Source: a virus. From it: 34,956 nt of DNA. Below the pieces are notes generated by a model. The model did not search any database. It saw only the letters and a list, made by a program, of their open reading frames with translations, and was not told where the DNA came from. Positions 3-34,255 of the stretch are shown here, piece after piece; positions within the stretch are counted from its first letter, which is position 1; the number at the start of each line of letters is the position of its first letter. The stretch is from positions 1 to 34,956 of the IMG/VR virus record IMGVR_UViG_3300010885_031524; one strand, 5' to 3'. A program made the translations under genes and the position numbers.

Positions 3-3000
3 ACCACAGCCGCCACCACAGCGGCAACAACTGCAGCCACCACAAGAGCACAAACCACCACATCAACCACTACAAGAGCACCTACCACAACCACTACAGT
101 ACCACAAACCACTACATGCTCTCCTAATTGTGATTGTTGGAATACGTATATTATTCCTAGTCTGACAATAACAGTTGCATATTATCATCATATTGATATG
201 CGTCCAAGAGTTTCAGATTGTAGTGATTGTTTAAATCCTGAATGTGATATTTTAGGAAACCATTATTGCAATCTTGCAAGATGGAATTTAAATCTTTTAC
301 CTGTTAGAGGAAATGTATCTTCAATACAATTAGGAGAAATAAATTTAAACAATGATAATTATCCAATTACTTCAGGTAATTGTGATATACATGGTGGTAG
401 TTATTGCGATAGAAAATCTGTATTTAACCTATCATCAACAACATTAAAGAATTTATTTGCTAAAAATAGCGGTGGATTTAATTTACAGATGGTACCAATA
501 GGTGAGGTTCATGTTAACAAACCTTATATAACAATACAAACTTCTACTGGTATAACATTGTATGATAATTGTGCAGATTCTACAAAATTATTATTAATAG
601 ATAGCGATATTTTTAGATGTGAAGGACAAGCGGGTAATTGTACTCAGTGTCCAACATCCACAAGATCACCGACTACAAGCACAACCACAATTCAACCAAG
701 AAATTCTACTACAACTACTACTAGATCACCGCTGTCAACCACAACAAAAAGTTTAACAACTACAACACAAGCAAGATATTCGACTACTTCTACAAGCACA
801 ACAACAAAAGTACCAAATCCGTGGAAATGTGTTGTTAAAAATGGTAAACAAGAATGTGTTATAGAAACTATTTGTGATAATGCTGGAAATTGTCGCATTC
901 TTGAAGGTGAATACGCCAATAAAACGGTGTGTGAATCTGCATGTATTAGTGAATATGGATGGAATTGTAATGGTAATGATTGTATTAAAGCAACATCTGC
1001 AGGAAATTACCCAACATATCAACAATGCATAGCAAATTGCGTTATTCCTAATCAAACATCTTGCGGAAATATTGCAGTTATTCCTCCCATAATGAATTAT
1101 ATTAATGATTCTGTTAGAAACTTGTCACAAAATAATTTTGTATCAGAAGAAATTCCTTCTATAAATATAGAAAATATATTAAATAATTCTTCTAATAAGT
1201 CGGCAGCATTTAGAGTTAGTGGAGTTGGAAGTAGAACAAATTATGATGCTAATATACCATCAGGCGGTGTTGATCCAACACATTATGTTGCTGGTTATTG
1301 CGCTGATGGTATTCCTTCCGCTAATCCGTTAGGTAAATATCAAAGAATAATAGATGATTGTGGTGCAACGTTTACGGATGCTGGACAAGATGCACGACAT
1401 ATAGCAAATACTAATGTATTTTGTACATATTATTGGAATAAAAAACTTAAATATTCTGTATCAGAAGACACACTAGGTACATCATCTGATAATACTCTAG
1501 ATGGAAGATTCTCAAACTCTATAAATAGAGAAACTCATTGGCTTAATGGTGGGTACTTCTATGGAACAGAATCATTAAGAAATTATATTTACAATGAACA
1601 AGGAACTGTTCATTTTGTAACATCTGTAAAACACAATTTTAATAATTATGATATTACTCAGCAAACAATAGATTATGTTCCAACTATTTTATTAGACGGA
1701 TTTAATTCTGTGAAACTAGGATCTGTTGTAAAAAATCAATGGGCATATCTTATGCCAAAAAGTTTATTGGGAGATTCTGAACGTTTTAGAATATCATATA
1801 CTATGCCATCATTCTTTGATATAAGTAAATCATGGAATTCTTTAGAATTTTACTTTACTAATCATACCTATACAATGTTATCTGATAGTGTAGTATATGA
1901 TTCGGCATCAGGAACTTTTAAATCCTCCTATATTATTGATAAAATTCGAATAGAAAATACAAATCCTAACAAGAAAACATACAATGAATCTGATAATATT
2001 TGGGTTTTAAATGCCACTGGTGCCATAACAGAATTTCCTTTTACGTGGCAAACGCCAAAATCACAAAGACATTCAAGAATTTCTTTTATAGTAAGTTCTT
2101 CAGATAGTGTTGATTTTTCACGCCATAAAGATGTTATAATGAATACTACTGATATAAGAGATGCTGCAGGTACTGAAGTATTGGAACAAGCAAATAATTA
2201 TTCATATCTTAACTATTTTATTGATAATTCCACATCAAGTCCGTACACATTAAATACCTCAATTGTTGATATATCTGATGGTGTGAAATCATATGAAAAT
2301 CATAAATTTATTGGCACATTAAAAAGAACTACAGGTAATCCTTATATTGAAATTTTAGATACAGATACGGATAATCATTTTGATGAATATTCACAAAAGG
2401 TTACTACTGGAAATAATTCTGCAAAGATTTTAAACGATGTAATCACATTATTAAATAGTAATGGTGAAAAACCAATAATAACACCGTTTAATAATTTACG
2501 TGGTGGTGTTGGTGCTTTTGGTATAGGAACTGTTGTTCCACCAATTCCTTGGATTTCACCTAACTATGGACAATCAATTATTCCAAATTCTCTTAGTAAT
2601 ATTACCAATATTTCTGCTGGATACGGATGGTCTATGGGATTAAAGAATGATGGAACAGTACATGTTTGGGGTAATAATGATAAGGGTCAGTGTAGAGGAC
2701 ATAACAGCAGTGGAACCATATTAACTACACCAGAACCATATTATTATGATGGAAAAGATCCTGTAACAATTAATGGAGATATTTTAACGGGAGTTAGTTC
2801 TATTTCTGCAGGTGGACATCATGGTCTTGCTCTAGTTGGTGATAAAATTGTTGCATGGGGTCATGGTGCAAATTATAATCAAGGTGGCTGGATGAATGCT
2901 GCTAAAGTTCCAACCAATGGAACATCTGGAGTATCTAAAATTTCTGCTGGAGATGTTCATAATTTGTTTATTAAAAGTGGAAAAGTTTATGCTTGGGGTT

Positions 3001-4472
3001 GGAATAATCGAGGTGAATGTCTAGGAACAGGTATTGGTGGAGTTCCTCTAATAACTACTGGTGTGGCGGCAGATGGAACCATTCCAGTAAAAATAAATGA
3101 TACAGAACTTGCAAATATTACTAGCATAGCTGGTAGTAGATTTTTCTCACTTGCTTTGAATACTAGTGGAAAAGTTTATGCTTGGGGTGATAATAACGAC
3201 GGGCAATGCACTGTTCCTGCCTCTGCTAGTAGTGGTGTTTCTTATATTAATGTTGGAACATTTAATTCTTATGCTATTAAAAATGGAAAGGTTATTGCGT
3301 GGGGTTCTAATCTAAACGGAGAATGTCTTGGTACTGATATTAATGGAAATCCAATTACTGGTATTCCAACTGGTCAATATGTACAAATTATGGGTAAAGA
3401 ATTAACAAATGTAATTCAAATTGTTGGTGGTACTGTAGATTCTGGAGCAACTGCAAAAGGATTTACAATTGCGTTAAAGGATGATGGTACAGTTGTTTCT
3501 TGGGGTGTAAATTTTAATGGACAATGTCTAGGTACTGATATTAATGGAAATCCGATTGTTAGCGATAAAGCAAATGGAAGTATTCCTTTTAAAATAAATG
3601 GAAGTGAATATAATAATATTTCCAATATTTCATGTGGTGCTGCTCATACTATGGTTTTGCAAAAAGATAATATTACAAAATTAACACTTGATGAAACTGT
3701 TAACATTTATAACGATAGTATAATAACGTCTACATGGAATGAGCAAGTTGTTAGATTTTATCTAAATCCTAATATGATTAGTTCGGCATTAATTGGAAAT
3801 TCGTATGCAATAATTGTAAAGAGTGTAGCATTACGCAGTAATTTTAAAAATACAACAGGTACATCTGGAAATGAAGTAACTAGAGATGAAGTAGTAGGAG
3901 AATATACATTTGGTAATTCTTCAAACAATGTATCATTATTTACTTTAAATTCTTCAAGATTTGCTACACCAGATTATTCCTCTGTTACTCCTAATGTTGA
4001 TGGAAGAGTAATTCCTGTTCGTGGTGCTGAATATGGTGATACAGAATTAGATAGTTATCCTGTAATAAATATTATAAGAAAATCTAATGGTAAGTTTTAT
4101 GCTCAAATTAAAGCCGGCGCTTTTCCATATTATCATGCTATTCCTCATTATCCAGTAATTGAAAATTTAGGTGGAATTGACGGATTCATTGCCAGTTTCA
4201 TGAAAGTTTGTGATAGATCAACTGATTGGTATAATCATGTTGCTACTACTGAATGGGTATGTAAAGTTAAACATACTCAACTATCAACCACACCAACTAA
4301 TTACCAAACAAATTCTTTGGTAAAAACCAAAATAGTATCACCTGTAATATCTGTAGTGGGAAATTACCCAACCCCAAGACGACCAGATCCATCTATTGTT
4401 ATTTTTAACGGATCAACTACTAGACCTATAGTTGTTGCCTACACCACCACATTACCATTTATAAGAGATTAA
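3..4472 (+). CDS. Giant modular fiber-like virion protein with RCC1-type beta-propeller (5' end outside window)
   Basis: The frame is open from base 3, so the gene starts before the window; 1489 residues are visible. In order: a Thr/Ala/Pro-rich linker (to about base 115), a Cys-rich region, a second Thr-rich linker (about 650-812), two small Cys modules of the type W-x-C...C-x3-C (about 825-1055), a long beta-rich region, then seven RCC1-like repeats (about 2585-3668) with recurring ISAG, VxAWG and N-x-x-G-[EQ]-C motifs, and a C-terminal region of unknown type. RCC1 repeats fold as a seven-bladed propeller. The position upstream of the neck genes matches that of T4 fiber genes 12 and wac, which supports a fiber or adsorption role by inference. 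Thr-rich linkers are typical of surface stalks. The RCC1 assignment is fairly sure; the biological role is not. Confidence 0.8.
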   Translation, partial: TTAATTAATTAATTRAQTTTSTTTRAPTTTTTVPQTTTCSPNCDCWNTYIIPSLTITVAYYHHIDMRPRVSDCSDCLNPECDILGNHYCNLARWNLNLLPVRGNVSSIQLGEINLNNDNYPITSGNCDIHGGSYCDRKSVFNLSSTTLKNLFAKNSGGFNLQMVPIGEVHVNKPYITIQTSTGITLYDNCADSTKLLLIDSDIFRCEGQAGNCTQCPTSTRSPTTSTTTIQPRNSTTTTTRSPLSTTTKSLTTTTQARYSTTSTSTTTKVPNPWKCVVKNGKQECVIETICDNAGNCRILEGEYANKTVCESACISEYGWNCNGNDCIKATSAGNYPTYQQCIANCVIPNQTSCGNIAVIPPIMNYINDSVRNLSQNNFVSEEIPSINIENILNNSSNKSAAFRVSGVGSRTNYDANIPSGGVDPTHYVAGYCADGIPSANPLGKYQRIIDDCGATFTDAGQDARHIANTNVFCTYYWNKKLKYSVSEDTLGTSSDNTLDGRFSNSINRETHWLNGGYFYGTESLRNYIYNEQGTVHFVTSVKHNFNNYDITQQTIDYVPTILLDGFNSVKLGSVVKNQWAYLMPKSLLGDSERFRISYTMPSFFDISKSWNSLEFYFTNHTYTMLSDSVVYDSASGTFKSSYIIDKIRIENTNPNKKTYNESDNIWVLNATGAITEFPFTWQTPKSQRHSRISFIVSSSDSVDFSRHKDVIMNTTDIRDAAGTEVLEQANNYSYLNYFIDNSTSSPYTLNTSIVDISDGVKSYENHKFIGTLKRTTGNPYIEILDTDTDNHFDEYSQKVTTGNNSAKILNDVITLLNSNGEKPIITPFNNLRGGVGAFGIGTVVPPIPWISPNYGQSIIPNSLSNITNISAGYGWSMGLKNDGTVHVWGNNDKGQCRGHNSSGTILTTPEPYYYDGKDPVTINGDILTGVSSISAGGHHGLALVGDKIVAWGHGANYNQGGWMNAAKVPTNGTSGVSKISAGDVHNLFIKSGKVYAWGWNNRGECLGTGIGGVPLITTGVAADGTIPVKINDTELANITSIAGSRFFSLALNTSGKVYAWGDNNDGQCTVPASASSGVSYINVGTFNSYAIKNGKVIAWGSNLNGECLGTDINGNPITGIPTGQYVQIMGKELTNVIQIVGGTVDSGATAKGFTIALKDDGTVVSWGVNFNGQCLGTDINGNPIVSDKANGSIPFKINGSEYNNISNISCGAAHTMVLQKDNITKLTLDETVNIYNDSIITSTWNEQVVRFYLNPNMISSALIGNSYAIIVKSVALRSNFKNTTGTSGNEVTRDEVVGEYTFGNSSNNVSLFTLNSSRFATPDYSSVTPNVDGRVIPVRGAEYGDTELDSYPVINIIRKSNGKFYAQIKAGAFPYYHAIPHYPVIENLGGIDGFIASFMKVCDRSTDWYNHVATTEWVCKVKHTQLSTTPTNYQTNSLVKTKIVSPVISVVGNYPTPRRPDPSIVIFNGSTTRPIVVAYTTTLPFIRD
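651..812 (+). repeat. Threonine-rich linker, low-complexity ACN codon repeat
   Basis: Irregular runs of ACA, ACT and ACC codons encode Thr-rich blocks broken by Arg-Ser-Pro and Lys-Ser. The stretch joins a Cys-rich domain to two small Cys modules. Similar linkers begin at the window's left edge and recur in two other fiber-like genes here. The reverse strand is open but only as a Val/Glu-rich shadow. Confidence 0.7.
2976..3553 (+). repeat. DNA-level repeats between RCC1 propeller blades
   Basis: Two 24-base copies are identical at 2976-2999 and 3165-3188 (189 bases apart, 63 codons). Two 23-base copies are identical at 3330-3352 and 3531-3553 (201 bases apart, 67 codons). Spacing by whole codons and identity at synonymous sites suggest fairly recent blade duplication or gene conversion inside the propeller. 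Confidence 0.7.
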
Positions 4473-7709: not shown

Positions 7710-8066
7710 GTGAAAGTAAAATTGTTTGATATTTATAATTCGATTCAGGTTATGAACAAGGTATTAGAAACTCCTCTTCCAGTTTCAGTTTCTTACCATT
7801 TAGGTAAAGTTTTCAAGTCATTGAATGATGAATTGAAAACAGTAGAAGAACAACGAATCAAGTTGGTTGAGAAGTTTGGTTCAAAGGAAGAAGGAAAAGA
7901 AGTTTCTGTTTCTGATGAAAACAAGGAAAAGTTTCTTAAGGAATTTTCCGAGTTATTGGAAACATCTGTTGAAATTGAATGGACACCTCTTTCAGTATCA
8001 AAATTCGACAATATTCAGTTAACAGTAGCGGATTTATCAAAGATCTCGTTCCTATTTACTGAATAA
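7710..8066 (+). CDS. Small unknown protein, GTG start, upstream of gp13
   Basis: This 118-residue protein has a GTG start behind a good AAGGAG. It is charged and mostly helical by eye: a Lys/Glu-rich middle with a predicted coiled-coil tendency around residues 30-90, ending in a hydrophobic strand (D-L-S-K-I-S-F-L-F). It contains no Cys and is unlike the beta-rich, Thr/Cys-rich proteins before it. The overall plan weakly recalls small phage proteins of the DUF1617 type, but I cannot confirm that. It lies between the fiber block and gp13, bounded downstream by a hairpin, promoter and terminator complex, so it is probably the last gene of the upstream transcript. Function unknown. Confidence 0.75.
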   Translation: MKVKLFDIYNSIQVMNKVLETPLPVSVSYHLGKVFKSLNDELKTVEEQRIKLVEKFGSKEEGKEVSVSDENKEKFLKEFSELLETSVEIEWTPLSVSKFDNIQLTVADLSKISFLFTE

Positions 8067-8089: not shown

Positions 8090-8130
8090 AAATCTCTCCT
8101 TTATAAATAAGAATAAAGGAGAGATTTTTT
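8090..8130 (+). terminator. Intrinsic terminator-like hairpin that also encloses the gp13 RBS
   Basis: A perfect 15-bp stem has arms AAATCTCTCCTTTAT (8090-8104) and ATAAAGGAGAGATTT (8113-8127), an 8-base loop, and a run of six T (8125-8130) that ends directly at the gp13 ATG. The gp13 Shine-Dalgarno AAGGAG (8116-8121) is inside the 3' arm. The stem is AU-rich at its base, so termination strength is uncertain. Read-through transcripts should both tend to stop here and hide the gp13 RBS. Confidence 0.75.
8102..8109 (+). promoter_or_regulatory. T4-type late promoter core within the hairpin, upstream of gp13
   Basis: An exact TATAAATA, the T4 late promoter consensus recognised by gp55-directed polymerase. 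It begins in the last three bases of the 5' hairpin arm and covers the first five bases of the loop. Initiation about 6-7 bases downstream would start RNA within the 3' arm, leaving a short leader with a free AAGGAG before gp13. Confidence 0.75.
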
Positions 8131-8949
8131 ATGTCTAGACCATCCACCAGAGAAGGATTAAAAGAGTATTGTTTACGTAAATTAGGGTATCCTGTTATCC
8201 AAATAAACGTAGATGATGCTCAATTAGAAGATAGAATTGATGATGCTTTACAATTATTTTCTGAATATCATTTTGATGGGGTCGAACGAGTATATATTAG
8301 AAAACAAGTAACTCGTATAGATATTGAGCGGGGATATATTCTTACAACAGAACCAACGGCGGCGAATCAAGCAGATGGTATTGTGGCAGCACCCGCAATT
8401 GATCCTACAGGTCAGAGTTTAATTTCTGTGATAAAATGTTATCAATTATTTAATACCTTGGGTGGTGGTGGTATGTTTGATGCCAAATATCAAATTGCAT
8501 TAAATGATCTGTTTGGAACACGTGGCGGTGGATATACTCAAAGTATGGTTACTTATTATATTACTAGAGGTCATATGCAAATGCTTCAAGATCTATTAAC
8601 TCCTGAAAAGACTATAGAATTTAGTAGAGTTACTAATAGAATATATGTGAATATGGATTGGAAGGGATTGAGTACTGTTGGTGAATATTTGATGTTTGAC
8701 GGATACTCAATACTAAATCCAGAACAATATACCGATATCTATAACGATATGACTCTTAAACGATATGTTACTGCTCTTATTAAGCAGCAATGGGGATCAA
8801 ATATGATGAAGTTTGGTAATGTGGAATTGCCAGGTGGTATAACTCTTAACGGAGCAGATATCTTTAGCGAAGCATCATCGGAAGTTACAAAGATTGAAGA
8901 AGATATTCAGAGTAAGTTTGAACTTCCACCAGGATTTATTGTAGGTTAA
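8131..8949 (+). CDS. gp13: Neck protein gp13
   Basis: This 272-residue protein is homologous to T4 gp13 (309 residues), which with gp14 forms the collar or neck that closes the filled head and receives the tail. The family signature is clear at the N-terminus: REGLKEYCLRKLGYPVIQIN followed by acidic D-x-Q-L-E-D-R-I-D-D-A and a Y-H-x-D-G segment, as in cyanophage gp13. Order gp13-gp14-gp15 with two-base or shorter gaps supports the call. AAGGAG lies 9 bases before the ATG, within a hairpin that also carries a late promoter, so expression is probably restricted to late transcripts starting at 8102-8109. Confidence 0.93.
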   Translation: MSRPSTREGLKEYCLRKLGYPVIQINVDDAQLEDRIDDALQLFSEYHFDGVERVYIRKQVTRIDIERGYILTTEPTAANQADGIVAAPAIDPTGQSLISVIKCYQLFNTLGGGGMFDAKYQIALNDLFGTRGGGYTQSMVTYYITRGHMQMLQDLLTPEKTIEFSRVTNRIYVNMDWKGLSTVGEYLMFDGYSILNPEQYTDIYNDMTLKRYVTALIKQQWGSNMMKFGNVELPGGITLNGADIFSEASSEVTKIEEDIQSKFELPPGFIVG

Positions 8950-33650: not shown

Positions 33651-33672
33651 TTTCTAAATTAAGTTATTAAAG

Positions 33673-33708
33673 AAAACGGAGACCCTTAAGAAAGGTCTCT
33701 GTTTTTTT
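33673..33708 (+). terminator. Intrinsic terminator after gp23
   Basis: The stem is CGGAGACC (33677-33684) with GGTCTCTG (33694-33701), 8 pairs including one G-U, with a 9-base loop and seven T (33702-33708). Four A before the stem can pair with the T tract. It ends late transcription of the head genes and isolates the gp3-uvsY-uvsW group. Confidence 0.88.
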
Positions 33709-33724
33709 ATACCTATATAATTAC

Positions 33725-34255
33725 ATGGATAACACCTTTCTAAGATCAGTAATAGCAAGAGAACCTAAAACTCTAAATGCTTTGCAGCCCAATGAGTTTA
33801 GACTTGTTTTTAGTAGAATTCCCAATGTTGTATATTTTTGTCAAAGCGCAAATCTGCCAGGTATAGGAATAAATGAATTTGTTGTTCCTGCACCATTTGC
33901 AACACAAATTCGTAGACCTGCTGGTGGATTAACCTATGATAATTTTGATATGAATTTCATAGTTTCAGAAGATATGGCAAACTGGAGAGAAATTTATAAT
34001 TGGATTACAGAAATTACTCCAACTACTAGTCTAAATTACGGATACGACAAATATAGAGATAATTTCTCAGATGCCACCTTGATTATAATGAATAATTCTT
34101 CTAAACCGTTTTATGCCATAAAATTCAAGGATTGTTTTCCTACAAGTATAGGCTCTATGACATTTGAAACTCAAGTTGTAGATATACCACCTGTTATTTG
34201 TAATGTTTCTTTTGCATATACTGGCTATAGCGTAGAAGATTTGACTTTACCGTAA
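33725..34255 (+). CDS. gp3: Tail completion / sheath stabilizer gp3-like protein (tail-tube fold)
   Basis: This 176-residue protein is the same length as T4 gp3, which caps the tail tube. It has the tube-family layout: F-R-L-V-F-S-R-I-P-N-V-x-Y-F, C-Q-S-A-N-L-P-G-[IM], then R-R-P-A-G-G-L-T-Y-D-N-F-D-M-N-F-I-V-S-E-D-M-A-N-W-R-E-I-Y-N-W-I. This is related to gp19 but clearly a separate protein. The position between gp23 and uvsY matches that of gp3 in marine T4-like phages. The alternative is a second gp19 or gp54-like tube-fold protein. No Shine-Dalgarno is evident; TATAAT at 33716-33721 is only 3 bases before the start. It follows a terminator, so it should have its own transcription. Confidence 0.72.
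   Translation: MDNTFLRSVIAREPKTLNALQPNEFRLVFSRIPNVVYFCQSANLPGIGINEFVVPAPFATQIRRPAGGLTYDNFDMNFIVSEDMANWREIYNWITEITPTTSLNYGYDKYRDNFSDATLIIMNNSSKPFYAIKFKDCFPTSIGSMTFETQVVDIPPVICNVSFAYTGYSVEDLTLP

Follow-up and report, generated by a model that had tools for sequence, protein, structure and literature searches.

In phage T4, late promoter sequence of gene e lies within the DNA from which the 5′ strand of a hairpin is transcribed; the Shine-Dalgarno sequence (SD) is hidden in longer RNAs and open in the late RNA (PMC3014915). The same logic of a late promoter combined with a hairpin over the ribosome-binding site (RBS) applies to I-TevI, I-TevII, I-TevIII and segB of T4 and to mobE of Aeh1 (PMC2988022). 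The SD is sequestered in an RNA helix in the leaders of T4 soc and gene 49 as well (PMC3014915). The late box described for the T4-like cyanophage S-PM2 is NATAAATA (PMC2984593).

We analysed a viral DNA of 34,956 bases from IMG/VR, the whole of which is called 'the window' here. On one strand it carries a T4-like structural cluster comprising gp13, 14, 15, 16, 17, 18, 19, 20, 21, 22, 23 and UvsY. An initial annotation had compared the leader of gp13 with that of T4 gene e, and the analogy is correct (PMC3014915). Here 'read-through RNA' refers to RNA made by polymerase coming from upstream, and 'late RNA' to RNA starting 6 nt past the late box.

A late promoter box within a hairpin before gp13

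The segment 8090–8130 reads AAATCTCTCCTTTATAAATAAGAATAAAGGAGAGATTTTTT, and the gp13 ATG follows at 8131. Its parts and the adjoining genes are listed below.

7710–8066, + strand: 118-aa gene of unknown function (PHROG 1401, MKVxLxxIY family); all 44 close relatives have it directly before gp13
8090–8104, + strand: hairpin 5′ arm, which is the anti-SD arm; it covaries in relatives and is predicted to be missing from RNA begun at the embedded promoter
8102–8109, + strand: late promoter box of T4 type, TATAAATA, spanning the end of the 5′ arm and the loop; the loop position is kept in relatives
8113–8127, + strand: 3′ arm of the hairpin, from its complementarity to the 5′ arm and from the fold
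8115, + strand: late start that the T4 rule predicts, 6 nt beyond the box (from T4 late promoters and spacing statistics), giving a 16-nt leader
8116–8121, + strand: gp13 SD, AAGGAG, wholly within the 3′ arm; predicted unpaired probability 0.001 in read-through RNA and 0.61 in late RNA
8125–8130, + strand: six-T run between the SD and the ATG; its first three T belong to the stem, and such T runs are enriched at gp13 hairpins
8131–8949, + strand: gp13, neck protein (head-tail adaptor Ad2), 272 aa (PHROG 211, E 3e-38), the putatively regulated gene

The initial annotation had described a perfect 15-bp hairpin with the box at the end of its 5′ arm and in its loop and AAGGAG in its 3′ arm. Its coordinates are confirmed: the arms are 15 nt each, 100% complementary, and enclose a loop of 8 nt. 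At such a spacing, no full complement of at least 12 nt other than this arm pair (8090–8127) was reported in the window. Dinucleotide shuffling of the whole 35-kb window (60 shuffles, loops of 3–12 allowed) gave longest perfect stems of mostly 9–10 bp and at most 12 bp, compared with the real 15 bp. The 90-nt gp13 leader folds at −25 kcal/mol (z = −4.6), a value equalled in 0 of 200 shuffles, and RNA from the predicted +1 (8115) has a z of +1.0, with no notable structure. The word TATAAATA by itself is common in the AT-rich window, and the evidence is its placement and conservation, not its mere occurrence. An Rfam search of the hairpin gave zero matches above the gathering score. The hairpin with an embedded late box before gp13 is real and non-random.

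Six T had been noted as following the hairpin. A T run does occupy 8125–8130 with the ATG directly next to it, but T8125–T8127 form the end of the 3′ arm and T8128–T8129 also pair in the predicted fold, leaving a tail of 1–3 U.

The genes upstream of gp13 are co-directional over tens of kb, and the annotated ones are baseplate, tail and structural genes; in one contig (G006) they include head closure, tube-like, and baseplate wedge and hub genes. The 118-aa gene has a single weak match in the phage collection. Homologues of gp55, gp33, gp45 and RegA are encoded by relatives (tblastn), the window being a 35-kb fragment without that region.

Conservation of the arrangement among gp13 relatives

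A gp13 protein search of viral_contigs yielded 80 loci. A gene-blind pattern search led to a distant relative (L197), and a second protein search starting from it yielded 80 more. In most leaders of gp13 relatives, which are 77–42% identical, a late box (TATAAATA, CATAAATA or the marine TATACATA) is in the loop. All 46 loci at ≥61% identity (L001–L046) have TATAAATA or CATAAATA in the hairpin loop and the SD in the 3′ arm, with arms that differ. A majority of the second set (L355–L434) has the same arrangement, including marine lineages with TATACATA, whose arms are unrelated (GTTGTC/GACAAC, GATGC/GCATC and TATATC/GATATA). This second set lacks the PHROG 1401 gene upstream and the hairpin is still present; where the upstream gene differs, the hairpin remains with gp13. 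The loci L047–L079 have either a weaker SD hairpin of 5–8 bp around a TACATATAA element inside the upstream coding sequence or no hairpin. The exact hairpin word gave zero matches in viral_contigs because the arms vary, and a nucleotide search against phages gave zero matches.

On the gp13 tree, the hairpin occurs in 66 of 98 lineages, with at least 6 gains or losses. The initial annotation had proposed to look in relatives for covarying arms around a preserved loop box, which were found in those 66 lineages, and had held that a box kept without its arms would speak against the switch. A minority of lineages do have such a box (L387, L397, L403, L412, L416, L417 and L429), but most keep complementary arms. 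The device is not universal among relatives, because some lineages keep the box but have lost the arms. At gp13 of the cultured phages S-SM2, HTVC008M, Melnitz and DLP6 the hairpin switch was looked for and not found, and Mosig has a weak version at most. That the hairpin is missing wherever the upstream genes point away fits HTVC008M, but a contig without the hairpin (G038) has co-directional upstream genes, and the rule is not general.

Covariation of the arms

Because MAFFT leader alignments mis-registered the arms, pairs were counted in an SD-anchored register. Pairing is retained at 77% of the positions beyond the SD core, compared with 47% (maximum 55%) in 2000 shuffles of the 3′ letters and 36–54% in slid registers, part of this excess being built in since the register of each sequence was picked for maximal pairing. 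The swap test and plain folding are free of that bias; arms fold with their own partners at a mean of −16.5 kcal/mol, as against −8.2 kcal/mol with swapped arms.

The lineages fall into 12 arm clusters, between which only the SD side is constant. The pair types TA, AT, GC and CG are all seen at the same arm positions, and the arms contain some U.G wobbles. By parsimony, the gp13 tree requires at least 42 changes from one Watson-Crick pair type to another, at seven positions. From these comparisons, the hairpin structure appears to be kept by selection in related phages.

Predicted accessibility of the ribosome-binding site

Over 67 distinct leaders, the median unpaired probability of the SD is 0.001 in read-through RNA, which is low by definition as the leaders were chosen partly by low read-through accessibility, versus 0.57 in late RNA, which is free of that selection. 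The predicted late leaders of these 67 hairpins are 9–22 nt long. In 24 of the 67, including the TATAAATAATAAGGAG subgroup, the start given by the T4 rule falls 1–3 nt inside the SD and would clip it, and therefore the start rule or the state of the late RNA may be different in these leaders.

The same calculation applied to T4 gave read-through and late values of 0.0007 and 0.91 for e, 0.0008 and 0.63 for I-TevI, 0.0002 and 0.83 for I-TevII, and 0.0007 and 0.68 for gene 49. As in the e/I-TevI class, the window hairpin pairs the SD in RNA from upstream (unpaired probability about 0.001), and RNA from the predicted +1 at 8115, given the box at 8102–8109, would lack the 5′ arm. The initial proposal that the SD is hidden in read-through RNA and open in late RNA is strongly supported by the covariation, by the predicted accessibility and by the presence of gp55, gp33 and gp45 in relatives.

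Comparison with T4 leaders

The leader of e thus shows the same predicted accessibility switch. The two genes differ in setting: e encodes lysozyme and is carried on early transcripts, whereas gp13 is a head-tail connector gene after other virion genes, and e has two late boxes where the window gp13 has one. The I-TevII leader is near-identical in geometry: TATAAATA starts in the 5′ arm and extends into the loop, and the 3′ arm contains the SD. However, the homing-endonuclease hairpins of the I-TevI group are within early or middle units, whereas the gp13 hairpin belongs to a virion gene in another phage group and is conserved over far greater divergence. SD hiding in the gene 49 leader was reproduced by the calculation, at a gene different from gp13. 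The soc product is a capsid protein and its SD is sequestered, so a virion gene can be regulated in this way.

T4 gene 13 is the same gene in the same position after structural genes, but it has no TATAAATA within 60 nt and its SD is unhidden (0.39). We also observed in T4 (NC_000866, ~93590–93624; L457) that the gene 13 SD is immediately preceded by a GC-rich hairpin, GGGGCCGCAAGGCCCC, in the same place and without a late box.

Specificity and generality

Among 64 genes with a late box and an SD in 13 contigs, accessibility was ≤0.001 in 11 of 12 gp13 leaders and ≤0.005 in 3 of 52 others. The SD is open at scaffold, capsid, sheath and tube genes. The hairpin structure is nearly private to gp13 within this set, and the idea that every late promoter of these phages sits in a hairpin was rejected, as other late-box genes are mostly open. 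A second clear hairpin-embedded late promoter (GCCTTCTATAAATAACAAAAGTAGGAGGC) was seen in G017, the contig of L033, on the minus strand at 49401, before a virion-like gene of 478 aa.

A gene-blind scan of viral_contigs for CTCCT..ATAAATA..AGGAG gave a hairpin with a start and an ORF of ≥80 aa in 36 of 118 cases among the matches listed. When these sequences were read by eye, the genes other than gp13 seemingly included homing endonucleases and gp5-like, gp21-like and tail-fibre-like proteins; of two endonuclease-like genes checked by Pfam, one is over the curated cut-off and one under it.

A proposed two-state leader of gp13

We consider it quite probable that 8090–8130 is a cis-acting two-state leader of gp13, similar in kind to the late-promoter/RBS-hairpin switches of e and I-TevI in T4. 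Polymerase coming from upstream would make RNA with both arms, in which the 15-bp hairpin would form and pair the SD, suppressing gp13 translation; the hairpin may also cause some termination. Polymerase with the phage late sigma gp55 would begin from TATAAATA in the loop, at a predicted start about 6 nt downstream of the box, where the 3′ arm begins. Such late RNA would have no 5′ arm and could not form the hairpin, and AAGGAG, lying about 1 nt behind the 5′ end, would be open. The expected outcome is that gp13 is made solely from its own late promoter.

As for the purpose, the co-directional genes upstream are virion genes, so the read-through RNA silenced by the hairpin may be late RNA too, in which case insulation of gp13 dosage, rather than its timing, may be the role of the device. 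A possible reading, though less likely than not, is a late-to-late insulator and not an early/late clock, with the gp13 dose uncoupled from read-through of the baseplate/tail operon and set only by its own promoter. In this reading, hairpin, partial termination and promoter would be combined within about 40 nt and conserved in much of the uncultured T4-like phages. The purpose, whether timing or insulation from upstream late transcription, is an inference.

The initial annotation had also envisaged that the hairpin guards the whole neck-to-tail cluster. This is not supported: the hidden site is that of gp13 only, and gp14, gp15 and later genes have their own separate starts; control of the whole cluster would need termination or polarity.

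Alternative readings

The hairpin might instead be mainly a terminator or insulator of the upstream operon, with the next promoter embedded by happenstance and SD pairing as a by-product. Of 73 hairpin leaders, 53 have a U-rich run past the last G-C pair. The spacer has a T fraction of 0.65 at gp13 hairpins and of 0.31 at other SD genes, and at least 5 T in 8 are found at 49 of 73 gp13 hairpins versus 9 of 135 other SD genes. However, at least 5 T within 8 bases past the full stem are found in only 12 of 73 leaders, many hairpins of relatives are without any U run (GGAGAACAAATG, GGAGAATTAAATG), and SD pairing accompanies every hairpin. In the window itself, the U run is mostly in the stem and just 4 of 15 pairs are G-C, so that the G-C-rich stem with an unpaired U run at once after it, by which intrinsic terminators are recognised, is lacking. 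We regard this explanation as unlikely. A narrower version, a terminator of the upstream 118-aa gene, was ruled out, as the second set of relatives drops the gene yet keeps the hairpin. The tendency of read-through RNA to terminate, which had been expected from the window alone, finds no support there, given the weak terminator tail; because much of the enriched U-rich spacer pairs, termination at the gp13 hairpin is possible rather than firm.

It is far less probable that the inverted repeat acts at the DNA level, where a palindromic operator or a cruciform covering the late promoter would be a site for a repressor or late factor. The palindrome does overlie the promoter box, and I-TevI shows that late-promoter operators exist (PMC2988022). 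But 12 arm clusters between lineages are hardly compatible with a shared DNA-binding protein, constancy is confined to the SD side, and the tolerated G.U pairs fit RNA rather than a DNA operator; this reading was rejected on the arm covariation. Chance juxtaposition of an anti-SD stretch and an AT-rich look-alike of TATAAATA can practically be dismissed. Words like TATAAATA are frequent in the AT-rich window, and a permuted core also gave some SD hairpins in the gene-blind scan (13 of 124 among the matches listed). The real core was significantly richer in hairpin plus start (36 of 118 among the matches listed, P = 1e-4), and dozens of lineages share the arrangement at the same gene with covarying arms, a covariation that already refutes chance.

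Relation to known switches

In the limited collection of literature that we searched, no description of a late-promoter hairpin at gp13 was found. There is good support for a known T4 mechanism acting on a new gene here, within a large T4-like group of uncultured phages. A core virion gene would thereby join the handful of T4 genes known for this regulatory trick, and the compensatory changes in dozens of lineages are stronger comparative evidence than a few close phages give. The two-state leader raises the question of why the head-tail connector, among late genes, should stay untranslated on read-through RNA. The hairpin with its box also provides a sequence signature for finding T4-type late promoters in uncultured phages.

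Further observations

At one locus (L185:1629–3388), an endonuclease-like gene lies between a gp13-type hairpin and gp13; it looks like HNH by eye and has a weak, sub-threshold NUMOD3 match in Pfam. Its first codons (MATITNRNDFK) are nearly a copy of the start of the gp13 that follows (MAATPITNRNDFK), and it therefore seems likely that a homing-type gene took over the late switch of gp13, which was left without a hairpin of its own.

Upstream of the neck cluster, positions 198–4472 of the window encode a protein of 1424 aa that contains RCC1 repeats (RCC1-like domain in Pfam, E 7e-48). A strong terminator-like hairpin with a T run, at 33664–33725, separates the major capsid gene from a second tail-tube-like gene.
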